This document shows, piece by piece, positions 9,766 to 56,619 of a stretch of 64,000 nucleotides of DNA. Below the pieces are notes generated by a model that saw only the letters and a list, made by a program, of their open reading frames with translations, searched no databases and was not told the DNA's origin. The DNA is from Xiphydria camelus (lineage: Eukaryota > Arthropoda > Insecta > Hymenoptera > Xiphydriidae). Position numbers and translations under genes: made by a program. How positions within the stretch are numbered: the stretch's first letter is position 1; each line of letters starts with the position of its first letter. The stretch is from assembly GCA_963678675.1 (NCBI GenBank), contig OY783194.1, positions 28,622,278 to 28,686,277 on the forward strand, read 5' to 3'.

Positions 9766-12381
9766 TTAAGAATCACCAGCAATACTTCGCAAGGAAGTTA
9801 AGTAAGACATGGCGGTCGCCAGAAACTTTAAAAAATTATAAAATAGTTTATTTTTGTCCCTTTTCAATAAGAATATGAAGTACGCGCAACGTTTCTCCGC
9901 GATAAAAAAAACGCAGATAGTGTTTCTATTTAAAAATCATTTCCTGTAGGATCATTCTCCTAGCTTTAGAATAACAATTCGTAATATCCATTTCATATCG
10001 TCACCCTCTTCCCTATACGTATCTTATAATAATTTAATAATGCAGGGAAACAGTAGTATTTTTTTTATCGATGAGAAATGTCACAGAGATACTTTAATGA
10101 CAAATTTAGTATAAAGCATCGCTCGTGGCGATTCTGGTTTTTTCTCAAAGTGTATGGCAATTAAAAACCCCTTTCACTGGCATCAAATTACCTTGCTATA
10201 ATTTTCTAAGCTGAGAGTACTTATTCCTCCTATTCTCAATGTCGGTGCAATCATGCTGCGCCTCAATATGAGCAAAATGCTCTTACGGTGTTTCAACGGT
10301 AGACAATCCCAGTCACTGTTATAAGCTGCTGTAGCTACAGACAGTGCCTTGTAAAAAAAAGAGAATAATTTTTATTTTTTTACTACGTATAAATAAGTAC
10401 ATTCATATTTTATCATATGAGTGCGAATTATCTGCATACCTCATCAATGAGAATATCACTGGGCCAGTGATAGAGCAAAAGTTGTAAGCAAACGAAAACA
10501 GCCGTAAACACGAATAACATCAATGAACTTGTAGGTTTTTTGTGGATCTGAAATTTGGGGAATATAAAAGTTATATTACAAGCATACATTGCACGTATGT
10601 CGCATTATGCATTTGAATGATGGAAACCAACTCACATTTAACATTTGAAATCCCAGACTGCAAAGTATTACGATAGCAGTAAACGTTAAAGCTAGTACTA
10701 TGTATTTATAGCTGTCATTTATGTCGTTTATGGATCTATGATTGAAGGATGAATGTAAAACAAACGGAGACAAATAGTTGCTTCATAAATGAAAATAGTT
10801 CTTTACAATCAAACAAGTATTTCTACTTCTTTTTAGGATTTATGTTTTAAAGAACTCAAAAATAATTTTCTTCCGTGGAGTTTAAATTTTTCATGGAAAT
10901 GAAATAAAAATAAGTGAAGTATGGCTATACTAATTCATAATTAGTAACTGCAGGAGTATATTTAGAAATGCTAATTCTGTATCAATTATATTTTAATTTC
11001 AAGAATGAAAAAGATTTTAAAAATTGATATATTGCAACATTTATAATTTAAGAATAATTAAGACAAATTTATTTCCGATCATTTGAATATTAAAAAAGGA
11101 TTAATAACTTATTTTGGGAAAGTTTGTCAAATCTGTTAACTTTTCTACCGTTTAAAAGTATTTTGAAGCAAAAAAAAAGGTATTTTTCCAATTTTACCTT
11201 ACAATCCCGTACCGATACTTACTTGAAAATCTTGATTTGATATTCAACGCAGCTAGAAATCCTCGTAGAAATGTTTATTCGGTTATCACCTTCGTCTTTC
11301 CGCGTATCGCCGGCCGAGATCGTTTGTAAGAATGATTGCAAATATTTCAACTTTGCACAACAGTGAAGAACTGTTACTCCAAAGAGTATTTCAGCTCCAA
11401 GACCGACGACAAGGAAGTATATTACAACGATTTGATGGCAGTACGCTACCGCGTACAGAAACGCAGAACTTGTATAATCGAACGGGTACCACATGAGAAA
11501 GGGGAGCGAGAATCCGAATTTAAAGAGAGGCGCTAGTACATAATGGGCGACTATCGAGGCTAGGATCAACGCGTACATTCCATAAATGACTGTTCCTATT
11601 TTTATATATGGCTGTAAGTATTCTAGTAATAGGTCTGGCCCATTCTCTAGCGAATCCTGCAACGATTCCACCAATTCTCTCAATTTTTTACTGTGGATCC
11701 TGTACATCGTAACTTTTACAATTGTTGGGAAGTACGTGAGCTGAGGACAAATTATGGCACTTCTTATTTCTTATTTGAAGGTACCGTAGCAAAATTAGTT
11801 GCCTTACAGTTATATCCGGAATTCCATTCAAATACCATACATTTTTTATTCATATCATCACGGATTTGACTCGTAATTTGTTCCTGTACAAAACAAACTT
11901 CATTCTTCGTAATGAAATTCAACAATTGGTCTAGTAGGAATGGAATGCCCAATATAAACCGTGGAGATTTTGTGTTTAAAACGGTCCACCAATTTTTGTA
12001 CGTTAAAATCTACTGCTTCTTCGTGTTAATTTTAACAAACACAAATGGATAGACCGATTTTAATACAAAATTTCCTTCTGTGTAGGTATGTATAAAAATA
12101 TAGTGTATATTTTTACTACGAAATATACACTATACATCCTCGTACGATACACGTACCTGTGAATAAAATATCACTGTTATTGTTTCAACACCAGGATGAG
12201 TAGTTACGACGAATATCAATACTTGAATAACCGACAAAATCGTTCCTACGATTATAGCTCCGTAATGAATTGAATTTATTATTCTCACGCGTCTCGATGA
12301 ATTCGAAGACAGGGCCCAGACGGCCAAAGTTTTAAGCAGGAAAGTTATTGTATTGACAATATATTTGTTCGGATTTGACAT
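9766..12381 (-). CDS. Odorant receptor A (insect 7-transmembrane OR), 388 aa, intact
   Basis: Six exons on the minus strand with consistent phases: 12157-12381, 11223-11740, 10636-10735, 10440-10547, 10192-10347 and 9766-9825. The N-terminus has YIVNTITFLLKTLAVWAL and a first membrane segment (IIVGTILSVIQVLIFVV). Exon 2 carries LLLEYLQPYIKIGTVIYGMY, PFLMWYPFDYTSSAFLYAVA and the CHQIVVIYFLVVGLG segment. The end has HWPSDILIDE, AYNSDWDCLPLKHRKSILLI, TLSLENYSK and a final FLATAMSYLTSLRS, which is the usual OR C-terminal layout. ORs form ligand-gated cation channels with Orco in olfactory neurons. No stop or frameshift was found. It is convergent with CYTH, 264 bases apart. Confidence 0.93.
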
Positions 12382-12877
12382 TTTTAAGCCACTGATATTC
12401 AGAAATCAACGCGGCACGGATTAGTCAAGTACACGAAGAATCCCGAAGCGTTAGTTCGACTCGTCAGGGGTTTGCACTGTGTGTTGACATTAAATATATA
12501 AGATAATTTGAAAAACGGGAAAGTATGACTGTCGGAAATAACACGTTATCCGCGGAAACCTGAGATTACCTTGTACGAGATGTGTTTCATTATACATATT
12601 ATCCCCTGTAATGCGCCCTGTGTCGATGTCACTGATATTACGTGAGTATCACAAAACGAGAGTAGAGCTTTCACAACGTGCAATTGTTATAACGACCGTA
12701 TATAATTTTTATTAAGCAGTTTGAAATGTTCCTCAGCTAAATATTTACCGTGAAAAATTTGAAATAGCAGACAACGACATTGTTTCTGTACTAATTCAAC
12801 AGAAAGTGGTTCTATTTCCTTGTTAGTGATAAACTGGAAATCTGAATGGTTGTACATTACATTCTTGATTCAACATA

Positions 12878-13729: not shown

Positions 13730-16700
13730 TTAAGAATCACCAGCAATACTTCGCAAGGAAGTTAAGTAAGACATGGCGGTCGCCAGAAACTTTAAAAAAT
13801 TATAAAATAGTTTATTTTTGTCCCTTTTCAATAAGAATATGAAGTACGCGCAACGTTTCTCCGCGATAAAAAAAACGCAGATAGTGTTTCTATTTAAAAA
13901 TCATTTCCTGTAGGATCATTCTCCTAGCTTTAGAATAACAATTCGTAATATCCATTTCATATCGTCACCCTCTTCCCTATACGTATCTTATAATAATTTA
14001 ATAATGCAGGGAAACAGTAGTATTTTTTTTATCGATGAGAAATGTCACAGAGATACTTTAATGACAAATTTAGTATAAAGCATCGCTCGTGGCGATTCTG
14101 GTTTTTTCTCAAAGTGTATGGCAATTAAAAACCCCTTTCACTGGCATCAAATTACCTTGCTATAATTTTCTAAGCTGAGAGTACTTATTCCTCCTATTCT
14201 CAATGTCGGTGCAATCATGCTGCGCCTCAATATGAGCAAAATGCTCTTACGGTGTTTCAACGGTAGACAATCCCAGTCACTGTTATAAGCTGCTGTAGCT
14301 ACAGACAGTGCCTTGTAAAAAAAGAGAATAATTTTTATTTTTTTACTACGTATAAGTACATTCATATTTTATCATATGAGTGCGAATTATCTGCATACCT
14401 CATCAATGAGAATATCACTGGGCCAGTGATAGAGCAAAAGTTGTAAGCAAATGAAAACAGCCGAAAACACGAATAACATCAATGAACTTGTAGGTATTTT
14501 GTGGATCTGAAATTTGGGGAATATAAAAGTTATATTAGAAGCATACGTTGCACGTATGTCGCATTATGCATTTGAATGATGGAAACCAACTCACACTTAA
14601 CATTTTAAATCCCAGACTGCAAAGTACTACGATTGCAGTAAACGTTAAAGCTAGTACTATGTATTTATAGCTGTCATTTATGTCGTTTATGGATCTATGA
14701 TTGAAGGATGAATGTAAAACAAACGGAGACAAATAGTTGCTTCATAAATGAAAATAGTTCTTTAAAATCAAACAAGTATTTCTACTTCTTTTTAGGATTT
14801 ATGTTTTAAAGAACTCAAAAATAATTTTCTTCCGTGGAGTTTAAATTTTTCATGGAAATGAAATAAAAATAAGTGAAGTATGGCTATACTAATTCATAAT
14901 TAGTAACTGCAGGAGTATATTTAGAAATGTTAATTCTGTATCAATTATATTTTAATTTCAAGAATGAACAAGATTTTAAAAATTGATATATAGGGTGTTT
15001 CAAAATTCAGTACAAATATTTAAAGGGCGTATTTTTGAGATCAAGATAAGACTTTTTTTCCGATAAACATGTGTCCTAAAATACACCCCCTCTGAGCTAC
15101 AGCCATCTTAATTTTCATTTAAAAAAATCGATTCATGGCATTTTTAAGTCAAGAAAACGATTAGAGCTCTCGGCTTTTAAATTTTTAGAATATTTGATGC
15201 ATAATTATTGCAACTACAGTTTAAAATAATCGATTTTTTCATGTAAACTTTACTACATAAACGATCCCCCGTTCGTTCATCGGCGATTATCTCGAAAATG
15301 GTAGGTTGTACCAAAAAAATGCAAGAGCTCAAAATTTTAGATTTTTGTCTGTCCAACCAGGTGGTCCTACTTATTTTTAAAATTTCTAAACGGAAACATA
15401 AAATTTCGGTCATTAAATGTGCATACCCCCCCCCCCCCCCCCCAAACAAATTACGTTTATGCCATTTTAGGGGTAAGAAATCAGCAGAACGTTCGAAACA
15501 GCAGTGGCTTGCAAATTTTTCAGAAATTAAATAACTGAAGTCAGAATTGAAAATAATCGATTTTTAAAATGACAATTAAGAGGGCTGTAGCTCGGAAGGG
15601 GTGTATTTTAGGACACATGTTTATAGGAAAAAAGTCTTATTTTGATCTCAAAAATACGCCCTTCAAATATTTATACTAAATTTTAAAACACCCTGTATTG
15701 CAACATTTGTAATCTAGGAATAATTAAGAAAAATTTGTTTCCGATCATTTGAATATTAAAAAAGGATTAATAACTTCTTTTGGGAAAGTTTGTCAAATCT
15801 GTTAACTTTTCTACTGTTCAAAATTATTTTGAAGCAAAAAAAAGGTATTTTTCCAATTTTACCATACAATCCCGTATCGATACTTACTTGAAAATCTTGA
15901 TCTGATATTCTACGCAGTTAGAAATCCTCGTAGAAATGTTTATTCGGTTATCAGCTTCGTCTTTCCGCGTATCGCCGGCCGAGATCGTTTGTAAGAGCGA
16001 TTGCAAATATTTCAACTTTGCGCAACAGTGAAGAACTGTTACTCCAAAGAGTATTTCAGCTCCAAGACCGACGGCAAGGAAGTATATTACAACGATTTGA
16101 TGGCAGTACGCTACCGTGTACAGAAACGCAGAACTTGTATAATCGAACGGGTACCACATGAGAAAGGGGAGCGAGAAGTCGAATTTGAAGAGAGGCGCTA
16201 GTACATAATCGGCGACTAACGAGGCTAGAATCAACGCGTACATTCCATACATGACTGTTCCTATTTTTATATATGGCTGTAAGTATTCTAGTAATAGGTC
16301 TGGTCCATTCTCTAGCGAATCCTGTAACGATTTCACCAATTCTCTCAATTTTTTACGGTGGATCCTGTACATCGTAACTTTTGCAATTGTCGTGAAGTAC
16401 GTGATCTGAGGATAAATTATGGCACTTCTTATTTCTTATTTGAAGGTACCGTAGCAAAATTAGTTGCCTTACAGTTATATCTGGAATTCCATTCCAATAC
16501 GATAAATTTTTTATTCATACCATCATGGATTTGGCTCGTAATATGTCCTGTACAAAACGAACTTCATTCTTCGTGATGAAATTTAACAATTGGTCTAGTA
16601 GGAATGGAATGCCCAATATATACTGTGCAAATTTTGTGTTTAAAAAGGTCCACCAATTTTTGTACGTTAAAATCTACTGCTTCTTCGTGTTAATTTTAAC

Positions 16701-17034
16701 AAACACAAATGGATGGACCGATTTTAATACAAAATTTCCTTCTGTGTTGGTATGTATAAATATAGTGTATATTTACTACGAAATATACATCCTCGTACGA
16801 TACACATACCTGTGAATAAAATATCACTGTTATTGTGTCAACACCAGAATGAGTAGTTACAACGAACATCAATACTTGAATAATCGACAAAATCATTCCT
16901 ACGATTATAGCTCCGTAATGAATTGAATTTATTATTCTCACACGTCTCGATGAATTCGAAGGCAGGGCCCAGACGGCCAAAGTTTTTAGCAGGAAAGTTA
17001 TTGTATTGACAATATATTTGTTCGGATTTGGCAT
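13730..17034 (-). CDS. Odorant receptor B, tandem paralogue of OR A, 388 aa, intact
   Basis: Same six-exon structure as OR A: 16810-17034, 15888-16405, 14595-14694, 14399-14506, 14156-14311 and 13730-13789, with identical exon lengths and phases. By eye there are about 27 amino-acid differences from OR A. They are concentrated in exons 1-2 (for example FGFS/FDFS and VAHY/VADY), with none in the last two exons. Intron 2 carries a 705-bp mariner-type MITE that OR A lacks. No disabling change was found, so both receptors look functional. Confidence 0.93.
14991..15695. mobile_element. 705-bp mariner-type MITE in OR B intron 2
   Basis: The ends TAGGGTGTTTCAAAATT and the inverted ...AATTTTAAAACACCCTG belong to inverted repeats of roughly 115 bases. 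Both repeats contain the mirrored gtgtattttaggacacatgt. TA flanks both sides (14989-14990 and 15696-15697). OR A has the uninterrupted empty site gatatattgcaac, so the insertion postdates the duplication. A run of 17 C residues lies near 15427. Confidence 0.9.
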
Positions 17035-17364
17035 TTTTAAGCCACTGATGTTCAGAAATCAACGCGGCACGGATTAGTCGAATACACAAAGAATCTCGAC
17101 GCGTTAGTTCGACTCGTCAGGGGTTTGCACAGGGTGTTGACATTAAATATATAAGATAATTTGAAAAACGAGAAAGTATGACCGTCGGAAATAACACGTT
17201 GTCCGCTGAAACCTGAGATTACTTCGTACGAGACGTATTTCATTATACATATTATCCCCTGTAATGCGTCCTGTGTCGATGTCACTGATATAACGTATCA
17301 CAAAACGAGAGTAGAGCTTTTACAACGTGCAATCATTATAACGACCGAATATAATTTTTATTAA

Positions 17365-50988: not shown

Positions 50989-51244
50989 GCAGAGAAAAAG
51001 AATTAGTTGGGTCTACTAAAAATTAATTGCAGGGTCACAATTAATTATTTATTTACATCAATTAGATCTTTTTTCGTATTAATCAGATATTTATGCTTTG
51101 CAACCACATATGTACTATTCCACATGATTGTAGGGAAGAGATATCTAATTGATGTGCATTACAAAATGTCATTGACATAAATAAATAATTACTTGCGACT
51201 CCAAATGTGATTTTCAGTGGATCTAACTAATTCTTTTTCTCTGT
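50989..51244. repeat. Fold-back MITE, family A copy 3
   Basis: Bounded by gcagagaaaaagaattagtt and aactaattctttttctctgt. The internal arm reads tgggtctactaaaaattaat. Confidence 0.75.
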
Positions 51245-52523
51245 GTAAAGACCGCGGGAAATGATAATATTGCACGTCTCGAAAAATACTTTATTTCTCG
51301 ACAATAAGTGCAGAAATTAATTGACTACCCGGTGAGTTTGAAAAAAATAATAAAAGAGTTCCATCGAAAGTGTTTGAAATAGGATAGCGTTAGGTGCAGA
51401 ACGAGGTATCCGTGTTGGCCCCTGCTTTCCACTACTAGCCGCGGAAACCAGGGGACATCTCGAGTGCCCGCGTTACGTAAGACTGCACGGGGCGCCGCCG
51501 AGCACCAAAGAATTAGGAACCCCTCTCCGCAGGGCGCGCGTTTTGTCTCCTTATTAAACTTCCGAGGTTCAGCTTTCACCCTAATCGGTATACACGCGCG
51601 TTCGCTCGTTATTTTCTCCGCTCACCCTTCCCGGAGAGAGACACGCGTTCTCCCTTTCTCCCTCTCTCCTCTCTCGTCCGAGACTCCGAAAAGCTCATTC
51701 CGCGAGCGCGGCGGGCGATTCCCTCGCGCGCTAAAAAGGTGGCGCGTGAACTTCCGAAAGTGTAAAGCGCGCGGGCGAGTCGATAAAACATAACTTTTTG
51801 CATTCTCCACGGCGGCGCGTCCTTCACATATTTTTCCCGGGGCGAATGGAAATTTCCCCCTTTTTTTTCGAGGGCGGTCCGCCGCGATGCGCCCCATATT
51901 TTCGCCGCGAGTAACGCGGAGCGACGTTTAAAAGTGGCCGGTAAGATCGTGCGTGTTCGCATTATCGCGCGAATTACCGGCGGTGTTCGTTCGCGTAGTC
52001 GCTCGCGTTCCCGACAACGCGATAATGAAACGACCAGAGCTGGATGATGCGCGCGTCGCTTCGTGACGATCGGACGATCGATTAACGGCGGAGCCCCGCC
52101 GCGCGAGGTTTAGGAGATAACGACTTCAATGTCAGACAGATAAACCGTAAACCCACTTTGACGGCGACCTAGTCCCCCTGGCCTGAAAAGCCGATCGTAT
52201 AATCGTCGCTGTAGCGGCGCGATTGTGCCGCTCGCGCGGAGGTGATCGCGTAATGCATCCGCAGAGGATGCCGCGTAGGCGTAGGGAGAAAGCGCGTGCA
52301 TGCAATTGAACGTCCGAGCGCAGTGAGCGCTTCGTCGGCGATGGACGCTTCAATTTAAATTGATGGAAATCGCATTAAGGGGAGTGTTGATGGAAGATGT
52401 GATCCATTGGAATAATCAGTGCTGATTGAACTGAATTGTATTTCGATCTGATCGATATTCATTCGAATCGACTAAATAACCCCAGTGGAAATTCTTTCTA
52501 GGCGTAGAATTGGGCCAAGTTAA

Positions 52524-53034: not shown

Positions 53035-53482
53035 ATTTAGGTTGACCTGATTTGAAATTAACGGGAAAGGGCAAAATAAAATTATCACGGATGCCCAGTT
53101 AAATCCAAAATGAATCCTAGATTGGGATGAAAGAGGAAAGTCGTGATAAAAATAACTTGGATGCTCAACTAAATCCTAACTTGGTCCTTATTTGGAATTA
53201 ACGGGGAAATACTTACTGTGGTAGCCCACATAACGCCTGTCATGGGCCTACATAATAATCTAGCATCCAAGCTAATTTTCCACTCGGGAAGCTCTTGGGA
53301 CTATTCATCTGATTGACATTTGTTCAAATAAAAAAATAATATAATCTACTATTTCAATTGTCGCGACCCGTCACGCTACGGCGGCCTGCCGCCAGATGGC
53401 GCCGACCCTTTCGGCCCTCGACTTGCGGCTCCCGGCCCACGGCTCTCGGCTCTCGTTAGTGGTCCGACGACGGGCAAGTTAC

Positions 53483-53490
53483 TATATAAG
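53483..53490 (+). promoter_or_regulatory. TATA box of the hammerhead-bearing element
   Basis: The sequence tatataag is placed about 41 bases upstream of the first ribozyme stem, so initiation would fall just before the ribozyme. Confidence 0.5.
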
Positions 53491-53523
53491 ACCGCAACTG
53501 CCCGTCTCTCACGGAGGACCACA

Positions 53524-53593
53524 GAGCGTCTAAGGCAGGAGTCGGCCTAGCCTTACTGACGAGTCCACAGGCCGACTCCGGGACGAAACGCTC
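53524..53593 (+). ncRNA. Type III hammerhead self-cleaving ribozyme with complementary loops
   Basis: All core elements are in place. Stem III is GAGCGT (53524-53529) with ACGCTC (53588-53593). C17 is 53530, giving a GUC cleavage triplet and a cut between 53530 and 53531. Stem I is TAAGGC (53531-53536) with GCCTTA (53550-53555). The core is CTGACGA (53556-53562). Stem II is GTCC (53563-53566) with GGAC (53581-53584), including the required G10.1-C11.1 pair, and is followed by GAA (53585-53587) and A15.1. The open helix is III, hence type III. Loop I (53538-53548, GGAGTCGGCCT) and loop II (53569-53579) are perfectly complementary over 11 nt, far beyond the usual loop contact. Confidence 0.88.
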
Positions 53594-56252
53594 CGCCGAA
53601 AATTTAGCAATTTTCTTTCAGTTTGAAGTACCAGTATCTCGACATTCTTGTAATCTGCAATTCGTATCTAATACTTTAATTCTCTCTTTTGAGTATCTCA
53701 TAACCGGATGAATATAAAAATCCCATTAGGACGCGAAGGGTTGATAAAAGAATGAAACTCGACATTAAATCGTGTAACCACGGGAGACGACCGCGCCATT
53801 ACGCGTATTTCTTCTCATTTTCGAGTTTAATAATGGCTTCAGTTCTTGGCTCGAAAATCGCAGGTGATCTTTCTGACGGAAATTCCTTCGCGTCGAATGA
53901 AAGCGACTATTAATAGCTTTAAAAGGAAAGGTGGAGCATTTTTAATCATAAAATTGACTACTTTCGATTCTCACTAAACATCTAAAATAATTCTTAGGGT
54001 TACTTCTTCTGAACTATTAATCGCAGGCATAATTTCACATTTGCGATAAATAAAATTTAAAGTGGCAAATTCTGCATCGTTCAACAAGAGTCGCGCGCCC
54101 GAATCCGCACCACACCTTCCCCCATCCCGGAATATTGCTATACGCGCGCGGTGATAGAATGTCAAGAAACGCGGTCCTTCGCGATCTCATCGCGCGCGAC
54201 GCTCGCATCCTTGAAGAAGCTGCACCGCGTTCCGCGCTCGTCGAGGGAACGACACAGTTGCATAAATTAAGAAGTGCAGCGCGCTTTGTGCCGCGGCATT
54301 CTTATCTTTCTCACCTTGAGCGAGGCTGCATATGGCATTCGTTGTGTAACGAATGTACGTACCTTTCCATTATGCAATTTGCAAATAAAGGCAGCGGGAT
54401 GCGCGCGGGCACGCCGTCGGATCGGGGCGTTGGCTGACGGACGGCGAAGTAATTTACGACTTTCACGCGAGTCGTGCTCCTTTTTTCTTCTTCGTGGTAC
54501 TCGTAAAAGTCTCGCTCGGCATGCGATGAGGGTGCAGTCTCGCTCGCACGCCCCCTCGTTACGCGCGATCCTCGCGATTCACGATGCGACGCGGTAAGCT
54601 TTCCCGCGCGAAGCTTAAGGGGCGTCTTTCAATTCTGGGGACTTTGAAAATAGCTCGTAGGATTTTTTTCAGGTGATGATTGGTGAGGATACACGGATAC
54701 AATGGACGAAAATCGCTTAATCGGTATTCGATTCTTATCGGTTAATCTTTAATGTCATCCAGTAAACATCGAATTCTCACTGAGCAATCATATCTGCTGG
54801 AGCAGTATGCCTTGAATGAAATTAAATATTTTCTAAGAGTCAAAAAATCAAGAACATGAGATATCTTGGATTCAGTGGAATAATCCAAAGGCCGTTAACG
54901 CGACCGAATTTACTACAAGTACACAGATCATTCTAATACTGCTCGAAATATTGTCGCCCGTCAAATTTTGTCAGCCACCATGGATGGCAATGGGCATCGT
55001 CTGCAATTTTCTTAATCTAATAATGTATTCTTAAACGATTACAAATAAAAAAATCGCGCGCTAGCGGCTTGGTAATAATTAGATACGATCGATTAAAATT
55101 GATTTTGGCGTATAAAAATAAGCTGGGAAAGAGATATCTCGGGACCACTGATTTGTGTCAATTTTTCCAACATACGATAATGCCAAAAAACGCCCCTTAA
55201 CGTCTGCTCAGAATTTTAAGTCAAATCTCGTTCGCGCGATCGAAACGCGCCGCCGCAATTGTTCGGACCGGCGACTTTGTCGCGATTTCTCGTCGAGAAA
55301 CGAATTCATAATTTACGGTCCAATTATCTCGAAAGAATCACGCGGCAAAAAAGTGAACACCAACTTCGTCGCGAGCATCTTAACTGGACTATCTGTTCCC
55401 CGCGCGATATCGTCTCGAAACTCTCATCCGAGATGCAAAGAATCCCCGGGTAACTCGACTGCACATATATAGGAGCGTACATAAGAAGCGTATATACAGA
55501 AGCGCAGACGTCCCGGCGCGGGAGGAGTCTCGAGAGAAGTTCCCGATCGGAGGGATAACTTTAACGAGACAAATAAATAAATCAGCGAACCCTTTTGAGG
55601 GGTATACATCAAAGTCCGCCGGGGAACTTATATCCACTTATCCGCTCGTCTCTCTAATGCGAAATACACTCTCCCCATAAATCTCGGAGTTTATTTATCG
55701 CGTCGACTGTTGTTGCGCCAACGTTTGCCCGGAGTTCCGGCCACAGAAATCGCACGATACACTCTGATACGGCGAATTGCCGAGATTCTTTGGCTCGAGT
55801 CGTCCATATTATAACGCGATTGACGTTTCACGGCTGAAGTGCGTTAATGCGATCGGTTCCCTTAAGTCGAGTCTCGTCGAAGAGGCGAAAAAGAAATTGA
55901 ATCCGACTCTCTCCCCCTTCTGGCGAGTCCTCGTTCGTTCCGATGAGCTCGCTCTCGAACCAGAGAGAGGGAGAATCAAAGAGAATTAGCATTTAAAGGA
56001 AAAATTTTCCGTCGACCAGTCAACTGCCTGCTTACGGCCATTAAATTGTACTTCTAAAAAGCCGGCTCAAGCCGGGATCTCAGTCAGTTGATAGTGAATG
56101 GGCCGAGAGGCGCAGACCCGTAAGCACAGTGAATTGCGGTGGAGGGTAGGCGGCGAATCGATTTTGCTCCCTGATGATATCGCGCGTCTTAGAAGTTCTT
56201 TGCCTTTTTTTCGTCAAAGGATATCGCTCTGCCGATTCTGGGTTTGAGATAC

Positions 56253-56464
56253 GCAGAGAAAAAAGAATTAGTTGGATCTATTTAAAATTAAATCTTTTTT
56301 CATACTAATCTGATATTTCTTCCTTGCAATCACAGACTATTTCACATGATTTTAAGGAAGAGATATTTTATTGATGTAATAACAAATTTCATTGATGTAA
56401 ATAAATAATTACTTGTAATCCCGCAAGTCATTTTCAGTAGATCCAACTAATTCCTTTTCCCTGT
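56253..56464. repeat. Fold-back MITE, family A copy 4 (shortened)
   Basis: Bounded by gcagagaaaaaagaattagt and actaattccttttccctgtg. It lacks the ttacttgcg segment of the left arm that other copies have. Confidence 0.75.
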
Positions 56465-56619
56465 GTACTTTTTCATCTCTGTGGATGCCCAATGTCGTGA
56501 AAAATTTCATTGATGTAAATAAATAATTACTTGTGATCCCGCAAGTCATTTTCAGTAGATCCAACTAATTCCTTTTCCCTGTGTACTTTTTCATCTCTGT
56601 GGATGCCCAATGTCGTGAA
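56384..56619. repeat. 118-bp direct tandem duplication spanning a MITE edge
   Basis: The block from aaatttcattgatgtaaata to cccaatgtcgtgaa occurs twice (starts 56384 and 56502) with one base difference seen (gtaatccc/gtgatccc). It covers the right half of the family A element plus 40 bases of flank. Confidence 0.85.

Follow-up and report, generated by a model that had tools for sequence, protein, structure and literature searches.

A type III hammerhead ribozyme in a probable long terminal repeat retrozyme of the hymenopteran Xiphydria camelus

The ribozyme and its long terminal repeat

A stretch of 64,000 nucleotides from the genome of Xiphydria camelus (Hymenoptera, Xiphydriidae; assembly GCA_963678675.1, contig OY783194.1, positions 28,622,278 to 28,686,277; hereafter the window) contains a type III hammerhead ribozyme on the plus strand, embedded in what appears to be a solo long terminal repeat (LTR) of a non-autonomous retroelement of the retrozyme kind. 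The features of this locus, in window coordinates, are:

53359..53598, plus strand: putative 3′-truncated solo LTR of the retrozyme family, from homology limits across 39 genomic copies
53483..53490, plus strand: TATA box TATATAAG of the putative LTR promoter, read from the sequence
53524..53593, plus strand: type III hammerhead ribozyme, core bases and stems checked base for base; predicted cut after 53530
53524-53529/53588-53593, plus strand: stem III, GAGCGT/ACGCTC, base-for-base reading
53530, plus strand: C17, with the predicted cut directly 3′ of it
following C17, plus strand: stem I, TAAGGC/GCCTTA, base-for-base reading
53538..53548, plus strand: loop 1 segment GGAGTCGGCCT, complementary to loop 2
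53556..53562, plus strand: catalytic core CUGACGA (DNA CTGACGA), read from the sequence
between the two core segments, plus strand: stem II, GTCC/GGAC, base-for-base reading
53569..53579, plus strand: loop 2 segment AGGCCGACTCC, complementary to loop 1 over 11 bp
53585..53587, plus strand: catalytic core GAA, read from the sequence

The initial annotation, made from the sequence alone, had proposed a canonical type III hammerhead with a full core and stems of 6, 4 and 6 bp, cut after position 53530 and preceded by a TATA box. The ribozyme was confirmed: CUGANGA, GAA, the core pairs, the cleavage triplet and three stems are all present, stem III is open, the proposed coordinates and anatomy are right, with the predicted cut after 53530, and the TATA box is in place. 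A strict type III descriptor, comprising the core bases and three paired stems, matched once on both strands of the 64 kb and never in 100 first-order Markov windows. Loops 1 and 2 measure 13 and 14 nt, respectively. The TATA box precedes the ribozyme by 41 nt, start to start, as against 37-47 nt for TATA-like boxes in 10 elements or arrays of the family, and transcription would start ∼30 nt 3′ of the box and ∼10-20 nt before the ribozyme. Searches for relatives elsewhere returned nothing related from phages (29 records, best E-value 0.8, partial) and no matches from plasmids or, with the loop-1 pattern, from viral contigs.

Solo LTRs, complete elements and chimeras in the genome

To place the ribozyme in its genomic context, the X. 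camelus genome itself (357 Mb, 38 contigs) was searched. At least 41 matches to 53360-53600 were obtained (40 of 1652 first-look candidates were scored), and the best-scoring copies were 91-96% identical to the window. The ribozyme core pattern CTGANGAGTCCN{8,25}GGACGAAACG had 617 exact matches, and its reversed control had none; the element, which the initial annotation had taken to be single-copy, therefore belongs to a high-copy LTR family. That annotation thus stands for the ribozyme anatomy, the TATA box and the rarity of the type in animals; it fails on copy number, and it had missed both the retroelement and an 11-nt complementarity between the loops. The exact 70-mer was found in 16 of 60 ribozyme matches (fetched loci L249-L297), and nine of 40 copies had no hammerhead core by the descriptor, a test in which L263 was misparsed.

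Among the best matches of 39 genomic copies, homology began abruptly at 53358-53360 in 24 and ended at 53592-53599 in all 39, and many copies extended to an end like TTCGCCACA that is absent from the window copy. The window LTR starts with TGTCGCGA, the usual family terminus being TGTGGCGA, and is without the final ∼30 bp and the 3′ target duplication. Solo copies form ∼270-bp units with inverted ends (TGTGGCGA/TCGCCACA), and at least 13 of 39 solo-copy rows (38 fetched copies plus the window) carry an exact 4-bp target-site duplication, a lower bound since several 3′ ends assumed by the script were wrong. We read these units as solo LTRs and the window copy as one lacking its 3′ end with its ribozyme intact. 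A search limited to the window did not reveal a convincing target-site duplication or pair of TG..CA ends on either side of the motif, which the missing 3′ end of this copy explains. A tRNA-like primer site noted by eye downstream of it was rejected.

At least 15 same-strand ribozyme pairs, 629-865 bp apart, occurred among the 100 places listed of the 617 matches. Ten pairs were fetched, nine of which were complete LTR elements of 874-1079 bp; the other, L296, was rejected as an element, being two neighboring solo LTRs. In the complete elements, an interior of 380-651 bp lies between two LTRs of 214-250 bp, both of which carry a type III hammerhead; the elements divide into subfamily a (L288, L289, L291, L293, L297; LTR 214 bp) and subfamily b (L290, L292, L294, L295; LTR 246-250 bp). 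LTR ends are of the TG..CA type, except that subfamily a ends in AA (CGCCAAA), and eight of the nine elements are flanked by an exact 4-bp target-site duplication. All have a primer site, TGGTGACCCCGACGTGAT (TAGTGACC in L294, a one-base change), and a polypurine tract ending in GGGAGTAC; the primer site is presumably of the tRNA-Trp type. LTR-LTR identity ranges from 209/214 to 250/250, reaching 100% in two elements, GC content is 58-61%, the two cut sites lie 629-865 nt apart, and the longest closed ATG frames encode 80-158 amino acids. AATAAA or ATTAAA was found in none of 10 elements or arrays and is present in the gypsy LTR end at L301 and L302. The primer-leader sequence had 122 matches with at most one mismatch (control, 0), which together with the 617 core matches suggests about a hundred elements with a 5′ junction and several hundred ribozyme LTRs. 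In sequence, the complete elements follow the plan of the plant LTR retrozyme. Between the subfamilies, the ribozyme was identical at 70/70 positions in three of four comparisons and at 69/70 in the other; in the 3′ LTRs of L290 and L291 it was 70/70, with only 81 identities against 23 mismatches and 46 gap positions in the part upstream.

Multimeric arrangements were also recovered. L298 holds four LTRs and three interiors, with units of 610, 631 and 610, inside a single CTAT duplication, as would be expected from reverse transcription of a multimeric or circular RNA, and unequal crossing-over is also possible. L299 (C10:18102200-18104600) is a truncated array mixing both LTR subfamilies, which ends in a fold-back holding the 5′ part of the ribozyme in inverse orientation.

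At four loci (L302, L314, L315, L316) the primer site marks the junction between a ribozyme LTR and gypsy-type sequence; upstream sequence was inspected for six of 16 primer-junction matches (L302, L303, L314-L317). L302 reads, in order, gypsy LTR end, retrozyme interior, retrozyme LTR with intact ribozyme, and gypsy interior; its gypsy LTR end is identical to that of L301 (110/110), and its gypsy interior matches L301 with 594 identities, 5 mismatches and 2 gaps over 600 bp. In L314, L315 and L316, where 10-20 nt 3′ of the primer site were seen, the ribozyme LTR directly precedes a gypsy-type primer site, and those nucleotides differ among the three, with L315's equal to L303's. The LTR stretches before the gypsy primer sites at L301 and L303 contain no hammerhead core. 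A protein scan covering the gag and protease pieces of the gypsy sequence matched the gag piece to Pfam DUF7041 and the next piece to an aspartyl protease, the latter weakly and below the curated cut-off. A tRNA-Trp primer site and 4-bp duplications are described for CsRn1-like gypsy elements, which occur in trematodes and insects (PMC2582038); the primer site, the 4-bp target duplication and the chimeric loci lead us to infer a co-resident Ty3/gypsy element of CsRn1 type as the helper. L317 (contig C17:10761900-10762155) has an LTR with termini of the same kind, a TATA box and a gypsy-type primer site without a hammerhead core, and is possibly a ribozyme-less relative or precursor.

Loop complementarity and copies starting at the predicted cut

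An 11-nt stretch of loop 1 (GGAGTCGGCCT) is the perfect complement of one in loop 2 (AGGCCGACTCC). The window hammerhead was compared with 60 others from viral and prokaryote contigs, all distinct and of type III; among the matches listed, those 60 showed loop complementarity of at most 4 nt. All 61 have the GTCC/GGAC stem II, for which the set was selected. Hammerhead loop pseudoknots are common, and those of type III accompany a 2-bp stem difference that the window hammerhead also shows (PMC3088659). On reasoning, the topology allows the pseudoknot together with stems I and II provided that stem II closes last, and the loop-loop pairing, of up to 11 bp, may lock the active hammerhead fold during transcription. 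Alone, the same 11 bp would give a nested hairpin incompatible with stems I and II, a possible off-state that might protect the putative circular RNA. Computed energies were -29.8 kcal/mol for the nested 11-bp hairpin with stem III and -15.8 kcal/mol for the hammerhead without the pseudoknot, and the folds of three unit circles each start with the nested 11-bp hairpin. Across 36 distinct copies, paired cells amounted to 97.2, 93.1 and 94.4% in the hammerhead stems and 96.0% in the 11-bp helix, and in solo copies pair loss was similar across all four helices. This alignment was drawn from 42 distinct ribozymes, with L297 represented by the identical window copy; the length variants L269, L276, L277 and L286, the insertion copy L255, and L260:3007-3076 were left out, the last unnecessarily.

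Copies departing from the family at the cut site were sought as those in which the base before TAAGGCAGG is not C, a screen blind to copies preceded by C and sorted by eye. It gave 35 copies, 30 of which were fetched; one of the other five sits in L253, with C17 substituted. The 30 comprised ten with C17 substituted, four with extra bases at the site, and 16 (L307, L309, L311, L312, L318, L320, L322-L325, L327, L328, L331-L334) in which unrelated sequence, representing 13 distinct flanks, is joined exactly at the predicted cut. No LTR 12-mer was found in the 61-71 nt upstream of these 16 junctions, and the base before them is T in 12, giving TTAA, and A in four. L299 likewise begins at the predicted cut, with C before the junction. 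The simplest reading of such junctions is that they derive from complementary DNA of RNA that owed its 5′ end to the ribozyme, which suggests that the ribozyme cleaves in vivo. In L305, L306, L308 and L313 (contigs C6, C6, C14 and C29) and L255, a few extra bases (TAACAA or similar) separate GTC or GTA from TAAGG, precisely at the cut site.

Interpretation and relation to known systems

Taken together, these data indicate, with a probability that we put at roughly 0.88, that the ribozyme belongs to a non-autonomous insect LTR retroelement, i.e., an LTR retrozyme, presumably with a CsRn1-type helper, and that the window copy is one of its solo LTRs. RNA polymerase II would start at the LTR TATA box, the ribozyme of the 5′ LTR would remove the capped leader, and that of the 3′ LTR would free the 3′ end; self-cleavage, to which the genomic junctions point, would yield a unit-length RNA of 629-865 nt (as sized from DNA), which may circularize, be primed by tRNA-Trp, and then be copied and integrated by the gypsy reverse transcriptase and integrase. 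A fuller account, which we hold as probable though with less assurance, is of an animal LTR retrozyme whose 11-bp loop segment may switch between active pseudoknot and inactive hairpin, which is mobilized by the CsRn1-type element with repeated exchange of LTRs, and which has a second class of copies arising from self-cleaved RNA by another route.

Several observations weigh against this interpretation. No Rfam family reached its gathering score anywhere in the window, and the covariance-model match above threshold that the initial annotation had set as its own test was thus absent: at E ≤ 10, RF00008 scored 21.7 bits against a cut-off of 48.5, in the wrong alignment register. We attribute this to a model with short loops meeting the long loops found here, and in our judgment the genomic evidence outweighs it. 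The minimum-energy fold is the nested 11-bp hairpin and not the hammerhead (z = -2.58), and covariation among the 36 aligned sequences was not significant (one pair with two-sided change; 209 of 500 shuffles equally high), so that the loop-loop pairing rests on complementarity and not on covariation. Eleven copies depart from the family at the base next to the cut, a partial control on neighboring positions in which substitutions and breaks are unsorted. No tRNA-Trp gene was confirmed for the primer-site match. One of the 18 ribozymes of the nine complete elements, in the 5′ LTR of L293, has a broken core pair; among the chimeras, which may stem from genomic recombination, stem I is damaged in L314 and a core position is changed in L316; and the unequal units of L298 do not make a perfect multimer of one circle. 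At L323, the flank is the one that precedes TAAGACC in L300 and L329, and because it is common to those loci a deletion between two TAAG motifs is the likelier origin of that junction.

L323 bears on the proposal that the cut-site copies in general arose at the DNA level, through insertion at TTAA or deletions between TAAG motifs, and not from cleaved RNA. The TTAA created at 12 of 16 junctions speaks for such an origin, which we nevertheless consider unlikely: there are 13 distinct flanks, the upstream 61-71 nt share no LTR remnant or common end apart from L323, and the junction is preceded by A in four copies and by C in L299. It is slightly less likely still that the ribozyme is a non-cleaving passenger in an ordinary gypsy LTR or terminal-repeat retrotransposon in miniature (TRIM), conserved by recent common ancestry; the 91-96% identity of the best-scoring copies and the computed preference for the nested hairpin would fit a passenger, and against it stand the 70/70 identity of the ribozyme across subfamilies beside such divergent upstream sequence and the 16 of 30 fetched copies that break exactly at the cut site. 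The same computed fold and its z-score could mean that the 11-bp hairpin is the functional structure, for example in dimerization or packaging, with the hammerhead match secondary. This seems very improbable, as the core bases and three stems arose by chance in none of the 100 simulated windows, pairing in the 36 distinct copies is retained to a similar degree in the hammerhead stems and the 11-bp helix, and the junctions fall at the hammerhead cut site. Least likely of all, and barely credible, is an integrated relic of a circular RNA like hepatitis delta virus (HDV) or a viroid, since LTRs, primer site, polypurine tract and target duplications mark a retroelement, and helix I of the HDV-like ribozymes in the literature is longer and interrupted.

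An LTR retrozyme in an insect can be compared with several described systems. Plant LTR retrozymes (Cervera et al., 2016, PMC4918200; NbRZ1, PMC12029980) are likewise non-autonomous with a type III hammerhead in each LTR, and share 4-bp target-site duplications, a primer site, a polypurine tract and solo LTRs (PMC4918200, PMC7761336, PMC7229834, PMC12029980), as well as a hammerhead-to-hammerhead unit of 600-1000 nt, GC above 55% and a proposed Ty3/gypsy helper. They differ in their tRNA-Met primer site (tRNA-Trp-type here), their LTRs of ∼300-400 bp (214-250 bp here, in an animal host), and their short non-canonical loop contacts, in place of which the insect element has 11-nt loop-loop complementarity, and it also has gypsy chimeras. 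Metazoan non-LTR retrozymes (Cervera and de la Pena, 2020, PMC7229834) are also hammerhead-bearing, non-autonomous animal retroelements, but are ∼150-450-bp tandem repeats of low GC with type I hammerheads and without LTR, primer site or polypurine tract (PMC7229834), whereas the insect element is of type III with LTRs. CsRn1-like Ty3/gypsy elements share the tRNA-Trp primer site, the 4-bp duplication and presence in insects (PMC2582038) and are linked to the family here by the four chimeric loci; unlike the retrozyme they are autonomous, and the L301 and L303 LTR stretches are without its core.

Among hymenopterans, PbTRIM of the red harvester ant is a small non-coding LTR element with 4-bp target-site duplications and many solo LTRs (PMC3532108). 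It is described with a length of 480-781 bp, LTRs of 152-184 bp and a tRNA-Leu primer site, and the word ribozyme does not occur in that main text; identity with PbTRIM was set aside on the described size and primer site alone. Termite and toad HDV-like hammerheads and pseudoknotted hammerheads of dipterans (PMC7936874; PMC3088659) are also of type III with Watson-Crick pairing between loops 1 and 2, but in those of PMC7936874 helix I is long and interrupted and the conserved pairing spans ∼4 nt, and in the search reported there that pseudoknotted architecture was absent among hymenopterans.

Retrozymes are currently split into plant elements with LTRs and type III ribozymes and animal elements that are non-LTR and type I (PMC12029980, PMC11722881, PMC7229834), in keeping with the initial annotation's view that a type III hammerhead is unusual for an animal. 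Among the open-licence papers to 2025 listed in our searches, titles and abstract openings showed no animal LTR retrozyme. As regards novelty, PMC7761336 mentions type III hammerhead elements in insects (earlier work and a manuscript in preparation), and others may thus already know such elements; de la Pena and colleagues there suggest horizontal transfer to plants from, e.g., bacteria or insects (PMC7761336). An insect LTR retrozyme would break the plant/animal split and bear on the origin of LTR retrozymes and viroid-like RNAs; if true, LTR-bearing retrozymes would not be a plant invention, and X. camelus would offer an animal system in which copies are young, a helper can be proposed and ribozyme cleavage may have left its record in the genome.

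The window, whose CpG observed/expected ratio of 1.50 suggests a hymenopteran, also encodes an insect-type odorant receptor exon (7tm_6), trypsin exons and a MADF domain, in agreement with the insect-type genome first proposed. Two near-alike odorant-receptor-like pieces lie in tandem on the minus strand at 11219-12405 and 15884-17058, the second of which is the one matching 7tm_6. A dispersed repeat unrelated to the ribozyme element is present at 51000-51271 and 56258-56619 as matching, partly inverted copies ∼5.2 kb apart, and includes a 118-bp tandem unit at 56384-56619 with a 99% match.
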